From assembly GCA_024742875.1 (NCBI GenBank), contig JANSXP010000045.1, positions 1 to 60,529 of the forward strand: a stretch of 60,529 nt of DNA, read 5' to 3'. This DNA is from Planctomycetaceae bacterium (lineage in GTDB: Bacteria; Planctomycetota; Planctomycetia; Planctomycetales; Planctomycetaceae). Positions 2,207-40,392 of the stretch are shown here, in pieces (positions within the stretch are counted from its first letter, which is position 1; each line of letters begins with the position of its first letter). The position numbers and the translations under genes are program-made. The notes under the pieces are model-generated. The model saw only the letters and a program-made list of their open reading frames with translations, was not told where the DNA came from and did no database searches.

Positions 2207-3145
2207 TCAGGGGCGATTCAGCTGACGCGCGGCGCCGGCAACGAATCCGGGGTACTTCTGCATCGCTTTGGCGGACGCTTCGCGGCTGTTGCGGGCCGGG
2301 ACAACCACGGCCGTGGGACGCCCCCGCACACCGGGACGCGGCATCAGCTGCACCTGCCAGACGTCTGTCACGCCGGCGTTGACCGCCATCAGCCCCAGCT
2401 GCATCATCTGAATCTGCTGCTGTTGCTGTTTCTGGGCCGCCTGATTGCGCTGATACTCGGCGGCCTGCTGCTGCGCCAGAAAGCTCTCCCGCTGCTTGTC
2501 CTGCTCTTTGCTGGCCTCAGAACTCCAGGCATCCCAGCCCTGCTCCAGCCATTTGCGTTCTTCGTCAGAAAACAGAAACAAGGGCACGGCAATCTGGTCG
2601 CGGTTCTCCAGCTGCATCATCACGCCGTCGACGTTGAAGTCGACCGACTTGCCCCGCAGCTTGCGGCCCCAGACCCGCAACGTGGAAATGTCCTTGACAG
2701 AGGCGTCATCGAACTCGCCCACAATTTTGGGCAGCATCATTTGATAGATGGGATCCAGCTTACGCAGCGTCGTTTTATTGACACGAATATCACCGCGTTC
2801 ATAGGTGACGTTGAGCGCTTTGGTCCCAAAGCCGGTGACCCGCCCTTTAAACTTTGTCCCTTCACGACCTGTCCAGGTGTGCATGTCCCGCACATCGTTG
2901 GTCTCTTTGGGGCTCGTCTTCATGAACTCGCGAACATACTCCTGATCGGCCTTGCTCAGTTCCGACACATTGTAAGCCTGCAGCCGACCACGCGTGTTGC
3001 GAACCAGGGCCGTTGTTTCGCTGGCAGCAATCAATTCCCCCTGAAAGCTGTGGAGACCGGACGCGTCCGACCATTCTTTTGCGGCGGCCGGGCCGCACAG
3101 CAGGGGCACAGTGAGCGAGAGCAGCAGCAGAGTTTTTGCGTTCAT
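2207..3145 (-). CDS. Exported SHD1-domain (SLA1 homology domain 1) protein
   Basis: The ATG at 3145 is chosen because GAGG precedes it by eight bases and it opens directly onto a signal peptide (MNAKTLLLLSLTVPLLCG...AAA). The 312-residue product carries up to three SHD1-like modules: KEWSDASGLHSFQGELIA...VSELSKADQEYV near the mature N-terminus, HTWTGREGTKFKGRVTGF in the middle, and a more divergent one near VPLFLFSDEERKWLEQGW. A Gln-rich coiled-coil-like stretch follows (AAEYQRNQAAQKQQQQQ). SHD1 copies are expanded in exported planctomycete proteins, where their role is not established; binding of peptides or other ligands is only a guess. It lies upstream of and co-directional with the unknown gene at 703-2154. 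Confidence 0.8.
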   Translation of the reverse strand: MNAKTLLLLSLTVPLLCGPAAAKEWSDASGLHSFQGELIAASETTALVRNTRGRLQAYNVSELSKADQEYVREFMKTSPKETNDVRDMHTWTGREGTKFKGRVTGFGTKALNVTYERGDIRVNKTTLRKLDPIYQMMLPKIVGEFDDASVKDISTLRVWGRKLRGKSVDFNVDGVMMQLENRDQIAVPLFLFSDEERKWLEQGWDAWSSEASKEQDKQRESFLAQQQAAEYQRNQAAQKQQQQQIQMMQLGLMAVNAGVTDVWQVQLMPRPGVRGRPTAVVVPARNSREASAKAMQKYPGFVAGAARQLNRP

Positions 3146-3655
3146 CGGAATCCTCGCCATAGGTCCAGGCAACGGGCACCGCGAAATGCGGACCGTCCAA
3201 CAGAGGCAACGGGGCCAAAACCCCGAAAAAACATTCTCAGGCAAAGACTCTGCTTTGCAAGCGACAGTCGTGATTTCCCCCGAGTTCAGGTGCTGACTGC
3301 CTTGTGAGAGGTTGCGTGTTATCCGAACGCATTAAACCTCCCAATCGTCAGAGTGAACCCGTGGGTTACCCCTCTCCTCGAGTGACCCAACAGCACGGCG
3401 AGATCGCCACCACAGATGAACGTTTTCGGCGCGATGCTGCAGCGTCTCCTGAACCACCGCAGTTTTTGAGCACTGGGGTGTGCGTCCTTCTCCCCATTAA
3501 ACATTTTCGATTATACAGGTTTGCCCGATACATGGTCCGTTGAGTGTCGCAGCAGGCCCGACAGCCGGAGTGCGTACTTGCACCTTCGGATTGTTCCTGA
3601 GTAGGATCGAAGACTGGGGGAGTAAAACACACCAATACACACGGGATCAAACAGC
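3146..3655. other. Divergent intergenic region between the SHD1 gene and the first sulfatase
   Basis: No convincing gene is seen; short open frames here lack ribosome binding sites and coding character. The region must hold the promoters of both divergent units. A weak sigma-70-like candidate for the sulfatase is TTGCAC at 3578-3583 and TAGGAT at 3602-3607 with an 18-base spacer, but both boxes match consensus only partly. An AT-richer patch lies at about 3495-3525. Confidence 0.4.
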
Positions 3656-5191
3656 ATGAAACGTAGTGCAATCGCAATGGCCATTGTGGCCTTGCTGGCT
3701 TCATTCAACTCGCTGCAGGCGCAGTCAAAGAAGCCCAACATTCTTGTCATCTGGGGCGATGACATCGGGCAGTTCAACATCAGCGCCTACAACCGTGGCA
3801 TGATGGGCTACAAGACGCCCAACATCGACAGCATCGCGACAGAGGGCGCATTGTTTACCGACTGGTACGGACAGCAAAGCTGCACGGCCGGCCGTGCAGC
3901 GTTCATTACCGGCCAGTCGCCCATCCGCACAGGCCTGACCAAAGTCGGACTGCCGGGCGCTCCGGAAGGGATGAAAAAAGAGGACCCCACCATTGCCACG
4001 CTGCTGAAGGCACAGGGCTACATGACGGGGCAGTTTGGCAAGAACCATCTGGGTGACCGCGACGAAATGCTGCCGACCGCCCACGGCTTTGATGAGTTCT
4101 ACGGCAACCTGTACCACCTGAACGCCGAGGAAGAACCGGAGAACCCGGACTATCCCAAAGACCCCGAGTTTCGCAAAAAATTCGGCCCCCGCGGCGTGAT
4201 CCACAGTTTCGCCGATGGCCGCATTCAGGACACCGGCCCGCTGACTCGAAAACGCATGGAAACCATCGACGAAGAAGTCAACGCGCGGGCGCTGGACTTC
4301 ATGGATCGGGCCGTCAAAGCCGACAAGCCGTTCTTCCTGTGGTGGAACTCGACCAAAATGCACATCTTCACTCATCTGAAAGAGGGTGTTGGTGGCAAGA
4401 CGGGACTGGGCATCTACGCCGACGGCATGGTTGAGCACGATCGCCAGATTGGTGAAGTGCTTGGCAAGCTGAAAGAGCTGGGCATCGAGGACAACACCAT
4501 TGTCATGTACTCCACCGACAACGGTGCGGAGACGTTCTCGTGGCCGGACGGTGGCACCACCATGTTCCGCGGCGAAAAGAACACCCAGTGGGAAGGCGGC
4601 TATCGCGTGCCCTGCATGATCAAGTGGCCAGGTGTCATCAAACCGGGAACCGTCATCAACGACATCGGTTCTCACGAAGACATGCTGCCCACACTGCTGG
4701 CGGCCGTTGGTGACAACAGCGTGATTGAAGACCTGAAACAGGGACGCCGTGTCGGCAGCATGAACTACAAGGTGCACATTGACGGCTACAACCTGATGCC
4801 CGCTCTGCAGGGCAAAGAAAAATGGCCGCACGAGTCGTTCATCTACTGGACGGACGACGGCAGTGTGGCGGCTTTGCGTTACAACAACTGGAAGATCACG
4901 TTCCTGCGTCAGGACCACGAAGGCCTGCGTGTCTGGCAGGAGCCTTTCGTTGCCCTGCGGGCTCCCATGCTGACCAACCTCCGCATGGACCCGTTTGAAA
5001 TCGCGCACGAAATCGGCATGGGCTACGATCGCTTCTTTGTGGAGCACATGTTCATCTTCGCCCCGGCCGCCGCGTACGTGGGCAACTGGATTCAGAGCTT
5101 CCGCGAGTTTCCGCCTCGGCAGAAACCTGGCAGCTTCAATCTGGACAACGTGATGGAAGCAGTCACCAAACCTCAGGGTGCGGGCAACTGA
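3656..5191 (+). CDS. Exported type I sulfatase (CTAGR motif)
   Basis: The 511-residue protein begins with a signal peptide that probably ends at LQA-QS (residue 22). The sulfatase fold follows at once: PNILVIWGDDIGQ with the metal-binding Asp pair (35-36), then SCTAGRAAFITGQ, a C-x-A-x-R formylglycine site with Cys76 and Arg80. Further conserved elements are GQFGKNHLGD, the STDNGAE motif and KWPG. The Cys must be converted to formylglycine by an FGE such as the one at 1-604. The substrate cannot be read from sequence; exported planctomycete sulfatases usually desulfate algal polysaccharides. It is a close paralogue of the gene at 14898-16454, sharing the GYKTPNID, KNHLGDRDEMLPT and FDEFYGNLYHLNAEEEPE blocks. 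A strong terminator follows at 5207-5242, so it is probably transcribed alone. Confidence 0.93.
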   Translation: MKRSAIAMAIVALLASFNSLQAQSKKPNILVIWGDDIGQFNISAYNRGMMGYKTPNIDSIATEGALFTDWYGQQSCTAGRAAFITGQSPIRTGLTKVGLPGAPEGMKKEDPTIATLLKAQGYMTGQFGKNHLGDRDEMLPTAHGFDEFYGNLYHLNAEEEPENPDYPKDPEFRKKFGPRGVIHSFADGRIQDTGPLTRKRMETIDEEVNARALDFMDRAVKADKPFFLWWNSTKMHIFTHLKEGVGGKTGLGIYADGMVEHDRQIGEVLGKLKELGIEDNTIVMYSTDNGAETFSWPDGGTTMFRGEKNTQWEGGYRVPCMIKWPGVIKPGTVINDIGSHEDMLPTLLAAVGDNSVIEDLKQGRRVGSMNYKVHIDGYNLMPALQGKEKWPHESFIYWTDDGSVAALRYNNWKITFLRQDHEGLRVWQEPFVALRAPMLTNLRMDPFEIAHEIGMGYDRFFVEHMFIFAPAAAYVGNWIQSFREFPPRQKPGSFNLDNVMEAVTKPQGAGN

Positions 5192-27596: not shown

Positions 27597-30500
27597 ATGT
27601 CGGAGCATCGTCCAGCTGAGTCGGCCGGTTCGTCGCCAGAGAACTTGTCTTTGGTCGACGAGTTTCGTGGGCAGTGGGATGCCGCCGTCAAAAAACTACA
27701 GTCCGATGCCGGCCATCCGCGGCACGTCCTGCCCAGCCTGGACGAGTTCTTACAGCGTCACCCGCAGATCGCGGCGGAAACCCGGATCGAGCTGTTGCTG
27801 CTGGATCAATACCAGCGGTGGACACTGGGGCACGAGATCCCTGCCCATGACTACATGGCGCGGTTCGATTTTCTGCAGGACGCCGCGCGGCTGAACCTCA
27901 TTCTCGAAGAGCTCGGCTATCGGGAAGAACGGTCCGCCGTGCCGCGGGATTTTGCCGAACAGTATCGGGATCAGCTTTCCGAAGCGGCATTTGCCGAATT
28001 GCTGCAGGAGGTCCAGGACGTTCCCGCCACCGCAGCGGACCGCATTGCGGACGATGCAGACCGGCAGCCGGTCGTGCCTCGCCCCCCCATTCCGCGACCG
28101 GCGCGTGTTGGGCGATACCAGGTGAGGGATGTGCTGGGCCAGGGAGCATTCGGCGCGGTCTATCTGGCGATCGACCCGGAGCTGCAGCGCGAAGTGGCCG
28201 TGAAAGTTCCGCATGAAAGCCGCATTGCTCAGGCCGGTGGTGTCGACGCGTTGATGGCAGAAGCCAGAGCCGTCAGTCGTCTGGATCACCCCTCCATCGT
28301 CCCCGTCTATGACATCAGCACCACCGAAGATGGACGGTGCTGTGTGGTTAGTCGTTACATCGACGGAGGAGATCTCAATCAGCGTCTGACGCGACCCTGC
28401 TCTGCGGTGGAGGCCGCCCGTCTGCTGGCGGTCGTTGCCCGGGCGGCCCATGCGGCCCACCGGGCCGGTGTCATTCACCGGGACATCAAGCCGGCCAACA
28501 TTCTGCTGGACACAACCGGACAGCCGTTCCTCGCTGACTTTGGTCTGGCGCTGCAGGACGCGGACTTTGGACAGGGGGCCGATTTTGTGGGCACGCCCGC
28601 ATGGATGAGTCCCGAACAGGCCCGCGGCGAAGGTCACCGAGTGGACGCCCGCACGGATGTCTACAGTCTCGGTGTGGTGCTGTTTGAAATGCTGACCGGC
28701 CAGCGACCTTACCGGGCCTGGGAAACCGAAGACCTGCTGGCGCAAATTCGCAACGGAGAAACGCGGCCTCCTCGTCAGTTCGATGACCGCATTCCCCGCG
28801 CCATCGACTGCATCTGCATGAAGGCCATGGCGCATCGCGCGGCAGATCGCTACAGCACAGCGCTGGATCTGGCTGACGAACTGGACGCGTTTGCCGACGA
28901 AGCAACGGCCGCCAGCGACAGTTCGGCCACTTCGGCCCCGACGCTGCCCGCCATGGCGGCCGGCTCCGGTTCACGGTACGAAAACACCAACTCGGGGCAG
29001 CTGGATGTGTGGGTTGACGATCTTTGCCCGCTGCCGACGGTCGTGCCCCGAGGGCTGCGTTCTTTTGACAGTGCGGACGCCGAATTTTTTCTGGACCTGT
29101 TGCCCGGCGCCCGTGACCGCCAGGGGATACCGGACAGTCTGCGATTCTGGCTGACGCGCATCGTGGGAGACGGCCCGCGATTTGCCGTAGGGCTGGTCTA
29201 CGGACCATCCGGCTGCGGGAAATCGTCGTTTGTGAAAGCCGGACTGCTGCCGCGGGTCCATCAGCAGATGGTCTGCCGCTATGTCGAAGCCACCGCCGAC
29301 GAAACCGAACAGCGGCTGCGTGTCTGTCTGCGGGAACTGCTGACAGAACGGGACAGATCAGACAGCACGGCGGCTGCGGCGGACCGCCCGGAAGAAACGC
29401 TGGCGCAACTGCTCGGGGAAGTACGACGGCAGGCGCAATTGAGCAACCGCCGCATCCTGCTGATCATCGACCAGTTTGAGCAGTGGCTGCACCGTACGGT
29501 CGGTGGTGATCAGGCGGCCCTGCTGGCGGCATTGCGGCAGTGTGACGGTGAACACGTGCAGACCGTCGTCATGGTGCGGGACGACTTCTGGATGGCGGCG
29601 ACGCGGTTCTTTCGTGATCTTGAAATCCCGCTGATTGACGGCAAAAACGCGGGCCCCATTGACCTGTTCGATCGGCGTCACGCCCGACGGGTGCTGCGAA
29701 TGTTTGGACTCGCTTACGGCGAACTGCAGCCGGGCGGGCATTTGGGGCACCAGCGTCGATTCATGAGGGCCGCCGTCGACAGCCTGACGGAAAACGGCAT
29801 GGTGTCTCCGGTGCGGATCGCTCTGTTTGCAGAAACCCTGAAGGGTCAGGAATGGAACTCGGCATCGCTGCGGCGGATTGGCGGTGCGTCCGGCATTGGC
29901 CTGGCGTTTTTGGAACGCAGTTTCGGCGAGACGGCTTCGGCGCCGAATCGCGTGTTCTCGCAGCCGGCTGAAAAACTGCTGGCCTCACTGCTGCCCGCTC
30001 CCGGGGAAGACATCCGTGGTGCCGCGAGAACCACGGCCGAACTGCGACAGGCGGCGGAAGTGAAGACCAGTGCCGAATTTCGCGATCTGCTGCAGATCCT
30101 TGACCAGCAGTTGCGGCTCATCTCTCCGGCCGATCCGGTGTCGGCCTCGGACACCGCGACACCGTCCGACAGCCGCACGCAGCGTTATCAGCTGACCCAC
30201 GATTATCTGGTGCCGTCCGTGCGGCAGTGGGTGACGCAGCGACGCACGCTGTCGTTTCGCAGTCGGCTTCGCGGTCGGTTTGCTGAACGCTCCGAACAGT
30301 ACGGTCAACTGCCAATCCGCCGACTGCTGCCGACCGCATGGGAAGACATCGCCTTTCGCTGCGTGACCTCACCGCTGGACTGGAATGAATCGCAAACCCG
30401 GATGATGGAGCGGTCGGGGCGGCGAGTGCTGCTGTGGCTGGCGGGGATCGGCCTGACCGTGCTGGCCGCCTTCTGGCTGGGCCGTGAACTGAACGGACGC

Positions 30501-32552
30501 CAGCAGGCGCAGTCGCTGTCCGAACGCATTGTGAATGCCACAACGACCGAGCTGCCGGGAATTCTGGACGAGGCCGTGGAGTTTCGCCCGTGGCTGATCG
30601 AAGATCTGCAGCAACCGGTGACCATTGATGAGGCAGATCGACTGACACAGCGTCAATTGCAACGACGAAAACTGCACTGGCAGCTATCGAGTCTGCGGCT
30701 GCGTGGCCGCGTGGCAGACGATCTGTTCGATCTGGTGCTGTCAGCGCCCGCACAGGATATCGCCGCCATCGCACAAATCATGGACGGCCGTTATCGCTTT
30801 CCCGTGTCGCCCCTGTGGGACGTGCTGAACAAGCGCAGCGAAACGGCTGACCGCCGACTGCGGGCGGCCGTTATTCTTGCCCGACTGGACCGCACACAGC
30901 GGCTGTGGGACGCCGCAGCCCCCTCTCTGGCAGGGCTGCTGGTCGATGCACGCACGTCGGAAATTGATTTTTTCATTGACGGCCTCAGACCCGCGGCCGC
31001 GCCACTCAGCGCACACTTGGCAGCCTATCCGGGATTAAATGGCTACACGGATCTGCAGCGGCGGCACGCAGCCCGCGCACTGGCCACCTTTATGGAAGAC
31101 GACCCGGCGGCACTGACCTCCCTGGCGATCGCAACCGAGCAGATCGAATTTTCCGAACTGGCTCCCGCAGTGGTTCGAGTGGCGGCTGACAACGGGGCGG
31201 CCGTCCGCGAAGTCCTCAATCAGCCCGCCGACGAGAGGTCCGCCGTGGCCGCACGACGCACGCCGCGACAGCGGGCCGTTCAGCGGGCGAATATCAACGC
31301 ACTGAAAATTCAGCTGGGAGACGGTTCGCCGCAGATGTTTCAGGCCACCGCAGATCCGACGGTTCGCAGCTATCTGATCCATCACTATGCCGTCGCCGGA
31401 GGATCGCCGCAACGGCTGCTTGCATGGCTCGGGCAGGACGTGGGAGACGACATCCGTCACGCATTGATCCTTGCTGTGGGTCAGATTGCGAAAGACCGCT
31501 TTCCACCGGAGGACTTCCAGACGTTCCTGTCCCTGCTGGAGGAAACCTATCGCACGCATCCGGATCCCGGTGTGCACGCGGCCGCCGAATGGGCCCTGCG
31601 GCGGCACGACCGGCATCAGTGGATTGCCCGGACCACGGCTGAACTGGCGACCGCGGCCGGGTCGTCCGATCGCGCAGCAGACAACACACAGTCTCCTGAA
31701 CGGCGTTGGCACGTCACCCCCATGGGACTGACCATGGTGGCAGTCGATGGCCCTTTCGACATTCAACTGGGGTCAGATCTGACGGACCCCGAACGGTTCC
31801 TCAACGAGAATCAGGTGTGGCGGCACGGCGGTCGGTCGTTCGACATGGCCGCGCACGAAATCACGGTGGATCTGTTCGCGCAGTTCATGAAAGAGACGGG
31901 CGCTGTGCTCACCAACAACCGCATGCCGGAAGAATCAGGAGCCGCCGCGCAAATTGAAATCCCGTGGAATGTGGCCGTGTGGTTCTGCAACTGGCTGAAC
32001 GAAAAAGAGGGCATTCCGCAAAGCGAATGGTGTTACCTGCCCAATCCCGAAGGGGCCTACAAGTCGGGCCTGGTGATCGTGGAAAACGGCATGCAGAAGA
32101 CAGGCTACCGCCTGCCCACGCACTATGAATGGGAATATGCGGCCAAAGCGGGCACGACCACATCACGGTACTACGGTCAGGGGCCGGAACTGCTCCGCGA
32201 GTACGCCTGGTTTGGCGGGAACTCCCAGCGTGTGGTGCGTGACGTGGGTCAGTTGAAGCCGAATCCGTGGGGGCTGTTTGACATGCTGGGCAACGCCTAC
32301 GAATGGTGCATTGGCCGCTCTTCACTGAAGATCGAGCTGGAGCCCCAGCGGGAACAGCTGGTCGTCAATCTGTTTGTGCCCCGCCGCGTGCGCGGGGGCA
32401 ATCTGCTGGAGCCGGAAAGATTTCAGCGAGCCGTGCGACGTTCGTTCTATCGCATCACCGTTGAAGGCGAGGCGATCGGCATGCGGGTGGTGCGAACGAC
32501 CCAAACGCACGATCTGGATCCCGCCCTGCTGTCCGGCCCGCCGGGCGGTTAG
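27597..32552 (+). CDS. Giant Ser/Thr protein kinase - STAND ATPase - FGE-like fusion (1651 aa)
   Basis: An N-terminal region of about 170 residues precedes a Hanks-type kinase domain with glycine loop GQGAFGAV, AVKVPHES, HRDIKPANILL and ADFGLAL, so all main catalytic residues are present. After an Ala/Ser-rich linker comes a P-loop STAND module: YGPSGCGKSSF (Walker A, about 535-545) and ILLIIDQFEQW (Walker B, about 620). One transmembrane helix lies at about 944-965 (VLLWLAGIGLTVLAAFWLG), then an alpha-helical region of probable repeats, and finally an FGE-like domain from about 1375 (MGLTMVAVDGPFDIQLG, GYRLPTHYEWEYAAKAG, LFDMLGNAYEW). The segment that carries the two active-site Cys in true FGE reads RAVRRSFYRITVEGEA, with no Cys, so this is probably a binding rather than catalytic domain. 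The helix puts the kinase inside and the FGE-like part outside the membrane. Confidence 0.92.
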   Translation: MSEHRPAESAGSSPENLSLVDEFRGQWDAAVKKLQSDAGHPRHVLPSLDEFLQRHPQIAAETRIELLLLDQYQRWTLGHEIPAHDYMARFDFLQDAARLNLILEELGYREERSAVPRDFAEQYRDQLSEAAFAELLQEVQDVPATAADRIADDADRQPVVPRPPIPRPARVGRYQVRDVLGQGAFGAVYLAIDPELQREVAVKVPHESRIAQAGGVDALMAEARAVSRLDHPSIVPVYDISTTEDGRCCVVSRYIDGGDLNQRLTRPCSAVEAARLLAVVARAAHAAHRAGVIHRDIKPANILLDTTGQPFLADFGLALQDADFGQGADFVGTPAWMSPEQARGEGHRVDARTDVYSLGVVLFEMLTGQRPYRAWETEDLLAQIRNGETRPPRQFDDRIPRAIDCICMKAMAHRAADRYSTALDLADELDAFADEATAASDSSATSAPTLPAMAAGSGSRYENTNSGQLDVWVDDLCPLPTVVPRGLRSFDSADAEFFLDLLPGARDRQGIPDSLRFWLTRIVGDGPRFAVGLVYGPSGCGKSSFVKAGLLPRVHQQMVCRYVEATADETEQRLRVCLRELLTERDRSDSTAAAADRPEETLAQLLGEVRRQAQLSNRRILLIIDQFEQWLHRTVGGDQAALLAALRQCDGEHVQTVVMVRDDFWMAATRFFRDLEIPLIDGKNAGPIDLFDRRHARRVLRMFGLAYGELQPGGHLGHQRRFMRAAVDSLTENGMVSPVRIALFAETLKGQEWNSASLRRIGGASGIGLAFLERSFGETASAPNRVFSQPAEKLLASLLPAPGEDIRGAARTTAELRQAAEVKTSAEFRDLLQILDQQLRLISPADPVSASDTATPSDSRTQRYQLTHDYLVPSVRQWVTQRRTLSFRSRLRGRFAERSEQYGQLPIRRLLPTAWEDIAFRCVTSPLDWNESQTRMMERSGRRVLLWLAGIGLTVLAAFWLGRELNGRQQAQSLSERIVNATTTELPGILDEAVEFRPWLIEDLQQPVTIDEADRLTQRQLQRRKLHWQLSSLRLRGRVADDLFDLVLSAPAQDIAAIAQIMDGRYRFPVSPLWDVLNKRSETADRRLRAAVILARLDRTQRLWDAAAPSLAGLLVDARTSEIDFFIDGLRPAAAPLSAHLAAYPGLNGYTDLQRRHAARALATFMEDDPAALTSLAIATEQIEFSELAPAVVRVAADNGAAVREVLNQPADERSAVAARRTPRQRAVQRANINALKIQLGDGSPQMFQATADPTVRSYLIHHYAVAGGSPQRLLAWLGQDVGDDIRHALILAVGQIAKDRFPPEDFQTFLSLLEETYRTHPDPGVHAAAEWALRRHDRHQWIARTTAELATAAGSSDRAADNTQSPERRWHVTPMGLTMVAVDGPFDIQLGSDLTDPERFLNENQVWRHGGRSFDMAAHEITVDLFAQFMKETGAVLTNNRMPEESGAAAQIEIPWNVAVWFCNWLNEKEGIPQSEWCYLPNPEGAYKSGLVIVENGMQKTGYRLPTHYEWEYAAKAGTTTSRYYGQGPELLREYAWFGGNSQRVVRDVGQLKPNPWGLFDMLGNAYEWCIGRSSLKIELEPQREQLVVNLFVPRRVRGGNLLEPERFQRAVRRSFYRITVEGEAIGMRVVRTTQTHDLDPALLSGPPGG

Positions 32553-35453: not shown

Positions 35454-36461
35454 TCAGTCGCTCACACGCTCCATCGTGTTAATGCTGATGTGTGGCCAGC
35501 GAATCAGGCCCGGCAGCCCGTCACGACGCGGGAAAAAGTCGAGGATCACGACCTGCAGGTACTGAAGCCGCAATCGGGCATTTCCGTCCTCATCCGTGTC
35601 TTCCAGTTCCTGAATCCAGAAGGTGGAATTCATGGAGGCCGCATCAGCCTGCCGTTCAATAAAGGGAATGTTCACAATACCGCCGGACTCCACTTCGGTA
35701 TCCACGTGCAGCGTCGTGGTGCGTTTGATCGACACTCCCGCGTTGGCGGCCGTCAGCAGAGCCGACGTGTCCGTGGGCAGGAAGCCGGGAAATCCGGCTC
35801 CGGTTACGGTGCCCTTAAACGGCTGATCCACGAAATGCTGATAGGGCTCCAGATACGGATTGTTCTGCAGATCCTGTGACACACCAATGGGCAGGGCGCT
35901 CACACTGGCGGGGATCTGCGGAGCGCCTGCTGTCGTGGAGCTGCGGCCCAGTGCGAGCACAGAGTTTCCGTGGGGAATGGACGCAAGGCGGCCAATATCA
36001 AGACCGTCCGTCTGCTCGTTCAGCATGTGCAGCCACAGCCCAGGCTCATGGTGAATGGCCAGGCCAGCCGCCCCCGCTTTGCCGCTGCGCGGAAAGTCGT
36101 CCGCCGCAACCTGATCGATCTTCTGTTCGTAGTCCAGCGTCACGACAAGCTGGTCGGCCTCTGATGTCGTCCCCGTTGCCGGATCCCGACGAATGCCGCG
36201 ATTGGGCACCCCCTTGTCAACCAGCGAGAACTGGAGTTCTTCGTTGTACTGATTCATCAGCACACGATAGTTGAAGCCCCCTCCAGACGGCGTGGCAAAC
36301 GGCAGAGCGATCAGATTCCACCCTCGACCAGGCAGCGTGGGGAGGTTGGCCCACTTGCCGGGCAGCAGACTCAGAGGACCAAGATCCTCGTCGCCGGACT
36401 GAGCGGGCGCCCGATGACGAGCCTGCGTCTTAAATTTCTGAACAAGTGATTCATCCATCAT
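35454..36461 (-). CDS. Heme-binding-annotated-type protein of uncertain function (335 aa)
   Basis: I place the start at the ATG at 36461 (GGAAG eight bases upstream); in-frame alternatives at 36500 and 36563 add up to 34 residues. The protein carries LGPLSLLPGKWANLPTLPGRGWNLIALPF, NEELQFSLVDKGVPNRG, HEPGLWLHMLNEQ and IPHGNSVLALGRS, which I recall from a family often labelled heme-binding, with a beta-barrel-like pattern; this is recall, not a search. No signal peptide is evident. It is divergent from the 855-residue unknown gene and its LodB-like partner with 320 bases between starts, so the three may be one system, with shared promoter space. Confidence 0.55.
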   Translation of the reverse strand: MMDESLVQKFKTQARHRAPAQSGDEDLGPLSLLPGKWANLPTLPGRGWNLIALPFATPSGGGFNYRVLMNQYNEELQFSLVDKGVPNRGIRRDPATGTTSEADQLVVTLDYEQKIDQVAADDFPRSGKAGAAGLAIHHEPGLWLHMLNEQTDGLDIGRLASIPHGNSVLALGRSSTTAGAPQIPASVSALPIGVSQDLQNNPYLEPYQHFVDQPFKGTVTGAGFPGFLPTDTSALLTAANAGVSIKRTTTLHVDTEVESGGIVNIPFIERQADAASMNSTFWIQELEDTDEDGNARLRLQYLQVVILDFFPRRDGLPGLIRWPHISINTMERVSD

Positions 36462-36781
36462 GAGCGTGCTTCCGCAAATCAGGGAAAGAAACAAAGACAT
36501 GTCACCTGAGGCGCCCCGCGGGCCAAAAGTGGCCATCGTCCGAATGGCAGCGTCCTCTGACACGAACCTACCCGCTTAGTCACGACCATTCCACCCACCC
36601 TACTCCGTCCTTTTTTATTTTCTCACACCACCACCTGTACACACCCTTAGTTCACTTGCAGCCACCGCTGCGCGCGACTAGCCTCACAGGAGTTTCGCAA
36701 CCGGGACGGCCGCCACAGACGTTTCCGACACGCCTGTCCACGGCAGTCTGCCCTGCAACCTCCATTCAGGACTCACGGGCT
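36462..36781. other. Divergent intergenic region of the flavoprotein locus
   Basis: About 320 bases between the 36461 and 36782 starts. If the longer start at 36563 is right it shrinks to about 220. It contains an AT-rich patch (36608-36622, CCTTTTTTATTTTCT) that stands out from the GC-rich surroundings, a likely place for promoter elements of one or both genes. No hairpin or gene is evident. Confidence 0.4.
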
Positions 36782-39349
36782 ATGGCACTAAAAAATGAGG
36801 TCTTTGACATCATCGGGCAGCTTGGACCGGCCGGCTGGACGGACCTGCTGAAACGGGTTACCGGCGGCCAGCTGGATCTGGAACAGGACACAGCCGACAA
36901 GCTGGAACTGGCGTTGTTGCAGCCAGTGACGGACCTCGATCGTTCTGTCCCTGGTTTTGGAGACGTCAACGGAACCGACCTCAGGGGCATCAGCGCCGGT
37001 CTGCCTTCCGCCAGCCTGCTTTATCACGCGCTGTCCAGCCCACTCGTGCGTCAGAAGGAAGATGGCAGCACCTTTGCGGCCGATGAGTGGGCGACTCCGG
37101 AACAGATCGCCACTGTCGAGAACTACATCTTCTCATTGCGGCAGACCAGTCTCGCCAGACTGCAGGCCACATGGACGGGACATCGCCTGGCGATCGTGGT
37201 GTTCTCTTCCAGCTACCGCCCCGCCGGAGAAACGGTTCATAAAAAACACGCTGATCTTTGCTTTTCCCGGACCGGCGTCGCCCGCGTAGGCACGCGTGAG
37301 CCACAGTACGCTCCTGCCATGCGGCAGTTTACGATGACGGCTGATGAAGCGAACGCCTGCCGGGTCGTTCCTGTTCAGTATTCGGCGTGGATTGCCGTCA
37401 AACTGCCGGGGTCTCGCGGCGATTTTGGCCCCATGCGTCCCCGGACTGACGACGACGCGCGGGAGTTCTGGGTGCCCGTGCACAAGCTGTTCGATGGAGA
37501 CGAATGCCTGCAGGGGCGAACCGTTTCTTTGCAGTTCCGGGAAGCTCACCTGAATCAGAAGATCCGCTACTTCCATGAAGAGCTGCTCGCTCGCGGCGTC
37601 GTCACCGGACACAGCCTGGGCGTGCTCGAGCAATCGCCCTTCACACTCAAGTCGGATCAGATTGCATCGATTGATGTCAAATCCGGGCGGCTCACACCCA
37701 TCGTTCATCCGGCCCTTGTGGCCGAGGCCTCGGATGGCGCTGAGGCTGTCACGTATCGGGTTCCGGAAGCGAAGACCTACGAAGCAGCCGGTGAATCACC
37801 GCTGAGTGTCGACACTTTCTTTTCTTCACTGGAAGCAAGGGTGCAGGGTTCCGATGGGCTCAGTTCGCGTCCCCTGCCGGAGTATGCCCATGCTCGAACG
37901 CGTGTCGTGAGCGGCGAAAAACGAGACCTCAACAGGACGCGCAACGTCGCCGGAACCGTCGGGAGCGGTCGGTATCGGGCGCTGCACTATCTCGATTTTG
38001 CGGGCGACGGGATCGTGTCTGTCGACGCGGACCGGCTGGGCACTGAACTGTCCACATACAGCGCTTACTCACTGGTGAGTGCGCCCGACTTTTTTCCGTT
38101 CGTCAGCCAGCGGGAACTGTCTGACTGGCCTCGAGGGCGCGACATCAAATGGAATGTGACACCGAACGTCCTGTCTGACACACGACTTCCGGCCAACTTC
38201 CGCTCTCATGATGCCTTCGAAACCGAACAGACGCGGGACGGGCAGGCCATGGAGGACACCATCACGGCCGTCGTTTCCCTGCCTCACGACCCCAGTGCCC
38301 CCGTGACGCAGCTGCGTGATGACGAAGTCGCGAGAATTTCCACACTGCCCGACGGCGCGGCCGGCGTCTTTGCCCCCGGCTGGGATGTGAGTCGCGATTC
38401 CACCAACAACATCGATCACCTGGCCGCCTACGGACTGGGGACCCCATTCCCGGAAGACGCCAAACTGTGTGCGGCACTGAGTTCTTTCTGGCCGGCTGTT
38501 GCCCCGGATATTACTCGCGTCTACTGGCCGACGGCACGGGAAACGCTCGCCGGGCGACGAACCATCGTTCCCCTTTCGGACGAAGAAGTGGGAATTGTTG
38601 GCGGACCGTCCGGCTGGGACGGAGACCGCGGGCCATTGTATGACGCAGCGGCCGGCACAGTGACCTACAAACACATTGATTACGTTGATTACGTGACGAC
38701 CGCGCTGGACGGCGGCTACAACTTCTCTCATCTGGCAGCGCTGGATTCCGCCCATTACAAGTCCCGAATCACGTGTCTGGATGCTGCCAGAGGGGCACTG
38801 CTCGCGGACATTCTGACTCCCGCAGTCGCCGCCCTGAGTGCGAATGATCGGCAGAACGCGCTGCGTTCGTTTGTCAGACAGGTCACGCGCAACGATGGAC
38901 TGACGCCCATCCTGGGAGATGACCTCAATCGTCAGGCCACGCCGTTTTCTCTGCGGAGCTTTCTGGAAGGCCCGTTTGTGACCACACTGCGCGATCTGGG
39001 CCTCGATCACGGCCAGGCAGAAGCATTCGCATCGCAGCTGATCCCGACATTCGCGCGGGTCGTCTCGGTCGATCGTTCCGTAACGCGGGAAGAACTGGGA
39101 GCCCTGGCATCCAGTTACCACCTGGTGTCTTTTCGGGAAATTGACAGCGACGATGCCGACTATGTGGCCGCTCGCGACGGGGCCCCCGTGACCGACGCAA
39201 TCTCTCACCGTCTGATTTTCGTTCTTCCCGGCAACAGCCGCCCGGTCAGCGTGGACGTTGACGGAACCTCGATCGCTCAACAGCGACAGGTCGATGTGGC
39301 TCAGTCTGTCACCTACTTTTCTGACGGTGTTCGCGCATGGCAGGGATGA
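36782..39349 (+). CDS. Large protein of unknown function (855 aa), partner of a LodB-like flavoprotein
   Basis: The ATG at 36782 (MALKNEVFDIIGQLGPAGW) is preferred over an upstream TTG. No signal peptide or transmembrane helix is seen, so it is probably cytoplasmic or exported by another route. Recognisable blocks are LPSASLLYHALSSPLVRQ and VENYIFSLRQTSLARLQ in the first 130 residues, APGWDVSRDS, GLGTPFPEDAKLCAALSSF, then SGWDGDRGP, and IDYVDYVTTALDG. One Cys (563) is followed by several Trp (570, 582, 612) in the most conserved-looking part. The downstream gene overlaps its stop and encodes a flavoprotein of the LodB kind, whose known relatives modify a Trp to make a cysteine tryptophylquinone cofactor. 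I do not see LodA-type signatures, so the partner role is an inference. Function is otherwise unknown. Confidence 0.7.
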   Translation: MALKNEVFDIIGQLGPAGWTDLLKRVTGGQLDLEQDTADKLELALLQPVTDLDRSVPGFGDVNGTDLRGISAGLPSASLLYHALSSPLVRQKEDGSTFAADEWATPEQIATVENYIFSLRQTSLARLQATWTGHRLAIVVFSSSYRPAGETVHKKHADLCFSRTGVARVGTREPQYAPAMRQFTMTADEANACRVVPVQYSAWIAVKLPGSRGDFGPMRPRTDDDAREFWVPVHKLFDGDECLQGRTVSLQFREAHLNQKIRYFHEELLARGVVTGHSLGVLEQSPFTLKSDQIASIDVKSGRLTPIVHPALVAEASDGAEAVTYRVPEAKTYEAAGESPLSVDTFFSSLEARVQGSDGLSSRPLPEYAHARTRVVSGEKRDLNRTRNVAGTVGSGRYRALHYLDFAGDGIVSVDADRLGTELSTYSAYSLVSAPDFFPFVSQRELSDWPRGRDIKWNVTPNVLSDTRLPANFRSHDAFETEQTRDGQAMEDTITAVVSLPHDPSAPVTQLRDDEVARISTLPDGAAGVFAPGWDVSRDSTNNIDHLAAYGLGTPFPEDAKLCAALSSFWPAVAPDITRVYWPTARETLAGRRTIVPLSDEEVGIVGGPSGWDGDRGPLYDAAAGTVTYKHIDYVDYVTTALDGGYNFSHLAALDSAHYKSRITCLDAARGALLADILTPAVAALSANDRQNALRSFVRQVTRNDGLTPILGDDLNRQATPFSLRSFLEGPFVTTLRDLGLDHGQAEAFASQLIPTFARVVSVDRSVTREELGALASSYHLVSFREIDSDDADYVAARDGAPVTDAISHRLIFVLPGNSRPVSVDVDGTSIAQQRQVDVAQSVTYFSDGVRAWQG

Positions 39350-40392
39350 TGACCAGCCACGTTGTCATTGCCGGAGCTGGTCCGGCCGGTTGTGCTGCGG
39401 CCATTGCGCTGGCCACCGGCGGCGTCCGTGTGACCATCGTGGAGCCCGCCGTTTTTCCCCGTCATCGACCGGGCGAGTCGCTGCACCCTGGCGTGGAACC
39501 GATACTGCAAAAACTGGGCGTCGACGAGGCTGTCAACGCGGCCGGATTCCATCGTCACTCCGGCTGCATGAATGGCTGGAACGGGGAACCTCGATTTGAG
39601 CCTTTTGGGAATGATGAAGCCGGCCCGTGGCTCGGCTATCAGGCGCAGCGGAGTCGGTTTGACGCGATCCTGCTGCAGGCCGCCGAGCGCCTGGGGGCGA
39701 CCGTGGTCCCCGATCGTGTCCGGCGGGTTCACTGCCAGCGTAACGGACACCTTTCCACACGGGCAGTCATCCATTCTGACACACACGAGTGGACGGCTGA
39801 CTGGGTTCTTGACGGCAGTGGCGCCACAGCGGTCGTCGCCCGCGGCCATGGAGTGAATGTCACTCGGCACTCCGGCCCACTCACCGCTCACTACGGTTAT
39901 GTGGATCATTCTGCCACACCACGCCGCTATCCCGACCCATTGCTGCAGCGCGACGGCAAACGCTGGACGTGGATTGCCGAAGTGCATGAATCGCTGTGCG
40001 CGTGGGTGACCGTGCAGCCTGGCCAGACTCCGCCTGACGACTGCCCGATCGAACTGCGGGGATGTCCCGTCATTCAGCCAGTTCGCGGCTGCGACGTGAC
40101 CTGGAGAATACGCGATCGGCTGGCCGCCCCCGGGTGGATGCTGCTGGGAGATGCGGCGGCTGTCCTGGATCCAGCCAGTTCACACGGCGTGCTGCGGGGC
40201 CTGATGTCGGGCATGCAGGCCGCCCATCTGCTGCTGACACACTGGCAACAGGGAATTCCCGTCGATGACATCACGCAAAGTTATGACGCCTGGCTGCGAG
40301 ACTGGTTTGGGCGGGATGTGTCCCGGCTGCGGCAGCTCTACGGGAGTTCGCAGACAGGCGAGGAAGTTACCGTAACCCCGGCCGCGATCTGA
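39346..40392 (+). CDS. LodB/halogenase-like FAD-dependent oxidoreductase
   Basis: The start ATG at 39346 overlaps the stop of the 855-residue gene (ATGA); 39337 and 39349 are alternatives. The protein of about 348 residues has the FAD-binding GxGxxG motif in VVIAGAGPAGCAAAIALATGG, then PRHRPGESLHPGVEPILQKLG, and near the C-terminus GDAAAVLDPASSHGVLRGL, both hallmarks of LodB and related tryptophan-halogenase-like flavoproteins. No halogenase WxWxIP motif is seen. LodB-type proteins act in trans on a Trp of their partner oxidase. The tight overlap with the upstream gene supports a partner function. No oxygenase partner reductase gene is near. Confidence 0.85.
   Translation: MMTSHVVIAGAGPAGCAAAIALATGGVRVTIVEPAVFPRHRPGESLHPGVEPILQKLGVDEAVNAAGFHRHSGCMNGWNGEPRFEPFGNDEAGPWLGYQAQRSRFDAILLQAAERLGATVVPDRVRRVHCQRNGHLSTRAVIHSDTHEWTADWVLDGSGATAVVARGHGVNVTRHSGPLTAHYGYVDHSATPRRYPDPLLQRDGKRWTWIAEVHESLCAWVTVQPGQTPPDDCPIELRGCPVIQPVRGCDVTWRIRDRLAAPGWMLLGDAAAVLDPASSHGVLRGLMSGMQAAHLLLTHWQQGIPVDDITQSYDAWLRDWFGRDVSRLRQLYGSSQTGEEVTVTPAAI

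Follow-up and report, generated by a model that had tools for sequence, protein, structure and literature searches.

A candidate LodA-like cysteine tryptophylquinone enzyme and its putative maturation flavoprotein in a planctomycete, with relatives in about ten bacterial phyla

The DNA studied was a stretch of 60,529 nucleotides (contig JANSXP010000045.1, positions 1 to 60,529; hereafter the window) from the 8.2-Mb assembly GCA_024742875.1 of a Planctomycetaceae bacterium. It contains a gene for an 855-residue protein (hereafter the partner) coupled to a gene for an FAD flavoprotein. On the basis of sequence comparison the pair was read as a divergent LodA-like cysteine tryptophylquinone (CTQ) oxidase together with a maturation flavoprotein from a clade of its own. 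It belongs to a bacterial family, widespread but overlooked, that probably builds a quinone from one cysteine and one tryptophan.

The closest described systems are the tryptophylquinone enzymes, of which few families have been described so far; few self-made cofactors are known. Methylamine dehydrogenase, QHNDH and LodA/GoxA are compared as such enzymes in sections of PMC7876137. According to those sections, Trp43 of QhpC, a protein in which Asp33 is also numbered, is dihydroxylated by the FAD monooxygenase QhpG, whereas LodB and GoxB act on mono-hydroxylated tryptophan. According to sections of PMC4417212, the CTQ of LodA is formed by Cys516 and Trp581, which are kept in all 168 LodA-like proteins of that survey. 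The survey criterion was a BLASTP E value below 1e-10, and for 19 Nitrospirae the same sections record no lodA-like gene.

The gene pair and its invariant residues

The layout given in the initial annotation, an 855-residue frame with an overlapping flavoprotein gene and a divergent gene for a haem-type protein, was recovered with each gene in its place. The pair and the residues of interest are as follows.

36782-39349, plus strand: partner gene, 855-residue frame from ATG; predicted CTQ enzyme, divergent LodA-like
39337-40392, plus strand: FAD flavoprotein gene; predicted maturase of the partner
38381-38383, plus strand: codon of Trp534 in the PGWD motif, conserved in 82/82 partners; PGWD aligns with PGWE of QhpC
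38456-38458, plus strand: codon of Asp559, conserved in 82/82; its aligned counterparts are Asp33 in QhpC and, in LodA-like proteins, the Asp numbered 678 in PlGoxA
38468-38470, plus strand: codon of Cys563, conserved in 82/82; predicted CTQ cysteine
38489-38491, plus strand: codon of Trp570, conserved in 82/82; predicted CTQ tryptophan
38615-38617, plus strand: codon of Trp612, conserved in 81/82

Counted from an upstream TTG, the mechanical open reading frame of the partner is 36656-39349 (897 residues). The two genes overlap by 13 nt; with a flavoprotein start at the ATG at 39346 instead, the overlap would be 4 nt (ATGA).

Relatives of the partner were gathered from a species-representative genome set by a profile of four members, using two short patterns. 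Of 154 pattern-matched stretches in genome contigs, 110 encode relatives. Of these 110, 80 were kept and combined with three plasmid loci, the window and L002, from the same phylum; L054, which is the same place as L002, was removed to give 84 loci. Rows L001, which is the window itself, and L003, which encodes no relative, were likewise dropped before counting. Fetched stretches vary in length, and a missing neighbour is uncertain in the 11 loci where the sequence ahead of the partner is shorter than 1.5 kb. Eighty-two full-length partners were aligned; residue counts omit L006, L018 and L081, whose partner frames are broken.

The cofactor residues had been sought in Cys563 together with Trp570, Trp582 or Trp612. 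A conserved Cys/Trp pair was found in Cys563 and Trp570, both invariant; Trp612 is replaced only in the relative L070, by cysteine, while Trp582 (codon 38525-38527) is not conserved. Cys563 is the sole conserved cysteine near the motif, and elsewhere Cys242 is kept in 80 of the 82 partners. The motif D-x3-C-x6-W-P was present in 81/82. Because one of the two recruiting patterns includes Cys563 (Trp570 is in neither), rows matching only the Cys-free pattern were inspected separately, and the full motif was present in 28 of these 29.

A flavoprotein gene was found within 1.5 kb of the partner and on the same strand in 79 of the 84 loci. It is directly downstream or overlapping in 76 loci and upstream in three (directly in L085; with a cupredoxin gene between in L076 and L079). 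Two weaker cases, a frameshifted copy in L006 and a degenerate copy in L086, bring the total to 81, and the contig of L078 ends at the partner. Homologues are thus seldom found without the flavoprotein. The invariant residues and this co-occurrence largely bear out the original proposal that the flavoprotein would make a tryptophan-derived cofactor in the partner.

Relationship to LodA/GoxA, QhpC and their flavoproteins

The partner motif D-x3-C-x6-W-P-A aligned with the Asp, Cys and Trp of both LodA-like proteins and QhpC. In hhalign comparisons Asp559, Cys563 and Trp570 fell on the invariant Asp, Cys and Trp of LodA-like proteins, whose motif W-x2-D-x3-C ... W aligned with positions 678, 682 and 697 of PlGoxA (6vmv); we take 682 and 697 to be its CTQ residues. 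Against one QhpC (L091) the same three residues fell on Asp33, Cys37 (presumably so numbered, by our own count) and Trp43, and PGWD fell on PGWE (E 0.024). Two further segments of the partner matched LodA-like proteins.

37268-37309, plus strand: RTGVARVGTREPQY segment, matching the N-terminal IGIARVGN motif of LodA-like proteins
37988-38110, plus strand: segment 403-443, matching the W-DD--DG-V ... AWV---PP-YAP segment of LodA-like proteins

Full profiles compared with 12 LodA-like proteins gave E values between 2.7e-4 and 3.1e-4, the match being confined to a 41-column segment, and none of 60 column-shuffled controls scored as high. In the N-terminal window (RTGVARVGT against IGIARVGN) the match covered 14 columns with an E value of 1.5e-4 (0/200 shuffles as high). 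The middle window, segment 403-443, gave E 2.5e-8 at a probability of 95%, again with 0/200 column shuffles as high, and the C-terminal window with the CTQ motif gave E 0.015 over 26 columns (1/200 shuffles as high). The three segments stand in the same order in the partner and in LodA-like proteins. With BLASTP, 0/82 partners reached 1e-10 against the 12 LodA-like proteins, a set that did not include Marinomonas LodA and GoxA; the best matches, at about 1e-4, lay mostly in the same middle segment.

The AlphaFold2 model of the partner (pLDDT 85.9, pTM 0.88) was compared with PDB structures using Foldseek, and ranks 1 to 7 were LodA/GoxA rather than an unrelated fold. Because E was 1e-3 at best, TM-scores were 0.11-0.16 and root-mean-square deviations were 15-21, the global match of the predicted fold is weak, the superposition poor, and the result supportive only.

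Remote homology of the partner to LodA is very likely, since independent weak signals agree. The initial annotation had recognised no LodA signature; judged from sequence, a faint one is present that is visible only by profile comparison and lies below the BLAST, Pfam and NCBIfam cut-offs.

Several results weigh against the overall reading of the pair and its haem neighbour. The three profile windows were picked after the sequences had been seen, the LodA profile matches are short, and outside the middle window hhalign probabilities were low (40-41% for the full profiles, 51% for the N-terminal window, 3% for the CTQ window and 2% for QhpC). The window partner had no Pfam match at E<=1, and no Pfam or NCBIfam model reached its cut-off; the better of two weak NCBIfam matches was QH_gamma (E 0.06). 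When 64 members were scanned, Pfam at E<=0.1 returned LodA_N (E 0.0093), FlbT and QH-AmDH_gamma in one member each. NCBIfam returned QH_gamma in 3/64 (best 0.012; 13.3 bits on the curated model against a cut-off of 50) and four unrelated singleton families. The partner and two profiles matched nothing among PDB sequences better than E 1.5, and those matches were to unrelated proteins. The weak Foldseek values belong on the same side, as do L004 and L050, with no flavoprotein match in the fetched stretch, and the Rheinheimera locus L086. There a 352-residue protein in the flavoprotein position (2604-3659) has lost GxGxxG and retains weak flavoprotein similarity. The frequent absence of a haem-protein neighbour, described below, adds to these.

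Likeness to LodA/GoxA comprises the large single-chain partner, the adjoining flavoprotein gene, the invariant Asp, Cys and Trp, the shared order of RVG motif, DG segment and W-P-A-x-x-P motif, and the weak fold matches. Unlike LodA/GoxA, the partner has about 150 additional residues before the RVG motif, and its flavoproteins form a clade separate from LodB/GoxB. The Cys-Trp gap is six residues in the partner and 14 in PlGoxA, compared with 64 in LodA (C516/W581 in the survey sections of PMC4417212). With QhpC the partner shares aligned PGW[DE], D-x3-C and W-P-A-x-x-P-D motifs, and QhpG is the top NCBIfam match of the window flavoprotein; the partner differs in its length of 855 residues and in having Cys563 as the only conserved cysteine near the motif. 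The radical-SAM maturase QhpD was not found among seven scanned window genes, and no search aimed at it was made across the loci.

The window flavoprotein scored 129 bits with the NCBIfam model for QhpG, 99 with GoxB, 89 with halogenase-like CmlS and 75 with LodB, all below their cut-offs. In a tree of 92 rows the 77 new flavoproteins formed one group (support 100/98), apart from 10 LodB/GoxB (99/94) and three QhpG (100/99) sequences. The earlier label of LodB-like was therefore near the mark in that GoxB and LodB are among the next matches, but the best match is QhpG and the proteins form their own clade. The flavoprotein is predicted to be a dedicated maturase of the partner. Among the flavoproteins found on plasmids with a cyanobacterial query, the two inspected (Streptomyces, Fischerella) had no annotated partner alongside.

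Proposed reaction, haem-protein neighbours and alternatives

We consider it likely that the partner is a remote LodA-like enzyme whose CTQ would be formed by Cys563 and Trp570, with the flavoprotein as maturase and amine oxidation linked to H2O2. The coupled genes would be translated together. By analogy with QhpG, GoxB and LodB, reduced FAD and O2 in the flavoprotein would hydroxylate Trp570 of the partner, a thioether from Cys563 to Trp570 would then complete the CTQ, and Asp559 may serve as the nearby acid/base. As in LodA and GoxA, the mature partner would oxidise a primary amine or amino acid via a Schiff base on the quinone, and O2 would re-oxidise the quinone to yield H2O2. The divergent FMP-type haem protein of the window probably consumes or uses the H2O2; in some relatives a cupredoxin may accept electrons instead. 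The first of these steps are proposed because of the residues, the co-occurrence and the homology, while the reaction chemistry, the kind of substrate and the haem protein's role are what we infer.

35454-36563, minus strand: gene for an FMP-type haem-binding protein by its NF040572 score; divergent from the partner gene
36564-36781, unstranded: spacer between the divergent haem and partner genes, which widens to about 320 b with a haem-gene start near 36461

The true start of the haem gene is probably near 36461 (its Met35/36), judged from relatives. Its product passes NF040572 (heme_bind_FMP) with 301 bits against a cut-off of 150. The AlphaFold2 model (pLDDT 70.8) had no PDB fold match at E<=0.001, and nothing relevant on FMP-type haem proteins was found in the open-licence literature.

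Recurrent neighbour families were obtained by clustering of flanking genes, and the peroxidase families were chosen because they recur near the pair. Names were anchored on FMP genes (window, L053), DyP genes (L030, L065; L004 as annotated) and animal-type genes (L021, L058, L074); other haem genes were named by phmmer similarity to these anchors and to one more FMP gene (L037). FMP-type haem proteins were represented in 11 of the 84 loci by 12 genes, all but one of which lie within 200 b of the partner. DyP-type peroxidases accounted for nine genes in eight loci and animal-type haem peroxidases occurred in seven loci. These three unrelated haem peroxidase-type families together occupy 26/84 loci in non-overlapping sets, 20 of them with the gene within 600 b. 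The near zone, with 25% of flanking bases, holds 20 of the 28 haem genes (binomial p 2.8e-7, uncorrected for kinship), a value that is too strong because eight of the 20 near loci come from Nitrospira or Nitrospiraceae.

The recurrence of three unrelated families near the pair suggests that H2O2 production is coupled to a peroxidase, and the fusion of some LodA-like proteins to catalase-fold domains, described in sections of PMC4417212, is in keeping with peroxide handling. None of the three families was found in the fetched stretch of 58/84 loci, so that a peroxidase next door is not obligatory. Amicyanin-like cupredoxins were found within 70 b of the pair in 6/84 loci, and the two that were scanned fall under the NCBIfam cut-off. 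More tentatively, and with some doubt on our part, the family may be a third CTQ branch spread over about ten phyla, in which a quinone oxidase supplies an interchangeable haem peroxidase (FMP-, DyP- or animal-type) encoded next to it with H2O2 or electrons for an oxidation not yet described, possibly with peroxidase-driven quinone maturation.

Other products of the same gene pair were weighed against a CTQ at Cys563 and Trp570. The flavoprotein might make tryptophan tryptophylquinone by linking Trp570 with either Trp534 or Trp612, or might simply hydroxylate a tryptophan, with Cys563 in another role. The high conservation of both tryptophans means that aromatic partners are available, but in the alignments with two known CTQ families the CTQ pair falls on Cys563 and Trp570, an Asp standing four residues before the Cys, and L070 manages with a cysteine at position 612; such a product appears improbable. 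We would be surprised if the flavoprotein were instead a tryptophan halogenase or another small-molecule monooxygenase, with the partner as an accessory protein or substrate carrier devoid of quinone. Its FAD-binding sequence does resemble halogenases and CmlS, its best Pfam match is Trp_halogenase (62 bits), and halogenases head its PDB sequence matches, where the peptidyl tryptophan dihydroxylase QhpG (7ctq) stands twelfth. Tryptophan halogenases carry the motif WxWxIP. That motif was found in 0/77 of the new flavoproteins, which moreover lie beside a large partner in most loci, and the best NCBIfam family of the window flavoprotein is QhpG. A halogenase-like appearance is also shared by known maturases, since QhpG and GoxB are themselves reported to resemble CmlS structurally in sections of PMC7876137. 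Nothing was found in favour of a structural role for the 855-residue protein, such as that of a phage tail or capsid protein, with an accidental gene pairing, and we regard this reading as very improbable. The partner had no match at E<=0.01 among 50,697 phage records, none of 79 pattern matches in IMG/VR was a relative, and the regular presence of the flavoprotein alongside it contradicts an accidental pairing.

Less settled is the part played by the haem neighbour in a CTQ enzyme. The initial annotation suggested that it may have a part in electron flow; the recurrence of haem peroxidase-type genes lends this something, but use of peroxide is at least as likely. It is possible, if in our view rather doubtful, that the neighbour is a MauG-like maturation enzyme or a direct electron acceptor instead of a user of H2O2. 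The di-haem enzyme MauG offers a precedent in the maturation of tryptophan tryptophylquinone (in sections of PMC7876137), and the cupredoxins beside the pair would fit an acceptor. On the other side, a similar position is filled by three unrelated families whose main common ground is peroxidase-type chemistry, and the many loci without any of them argue against a need in maturation.

Distribution and other observations

Judged from record titles and tree labels, the partner family occurs in Cyanobacteriota, Nitrospirota, Pseudomonadota, Planctomycetota, Acidobacteriota, Actinomycetota, Bacillota, Bacteroidota, Verrucomicrobiota and Myxococcota, and one further contig with a member was binned as an archaeon. 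No description of the family was found in the open-licence PMC literature. If the CTQ assignment is correct, the family would add a further CTQ branch, represented in about ten phyla, whose maturases form a distinct clade and in which the Cys-Trp spacing is short, near that of QhpC. Such a branch would link two known CTQ families and allow their maturation chemistry to be compared. It would also give a function to nameless proteins in cyanobacteria, Nitrospira, Pseudomonas and others, among them the Acaryochloris member WP_012167245.1, annotated as "hypothetical protein" and the only member with an annotation in the records used.

The partner was not found in seven other genomes of the genus searched. 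A search of 294 genomes of the phylum returned three matches: the window's own, a true relative in G107 (L002) and G191 (L003). The last was rejected as a relative, its match being weak (E 5.9e-4) and its frames encoding other proteins. Because of this scarcity in genus and phylum, the partner locus looks horizontally acquired.

Among loci with haem genes, a metagenome-assembled genome of Edaphobacter (L065, 9893-14931) carries the partner gene twice in tandem, together with a single flavoprotein gene and, upstream, a DyP-type peroxidase. In a related genome, G336 (L109), the FMP-type haem protein has an N-terminal extension that by eye resembles a twin-arginine signal.

Divergent from the pair in three Burkholderiaceae loci (L006, L083, L084) is one gene family of 780-813 residues, and L005 has an open reading frame similar by eye. 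MoCoBD molybdopterin-cofactor domains were found in 3/76 neighbours scanned together and most likely belong to this family. In Pseudomonas L043 a serine hydroxymethyltransferase gene is divergent from the pair and a beta-eliminating lyase gene lies downstream, a possible hint of an amino-acid substrate; genes of similar size occupy these positions in Pseudomonas L046-L049. The hint was not retained, as serine hydroxymethyltransferase was found in 4/76 neighbours but confirmed singly in L043 only, within one lineage; similar-sized neighbours in two Streptomyces loci were not this enzyme. Beside the truncated partner of L078 lies a divergent open reading frame (2-1375) that by eye resembles a GMC/cholesterol-oxidase-type flavoenzyme. 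Elsewhere in the window, positions 27597-32552 hold an open reading frame of 1651 residues that by eye is Ser/Thr kinase-like, with a C-terminal domain resembling sulfatase-modifying factor.

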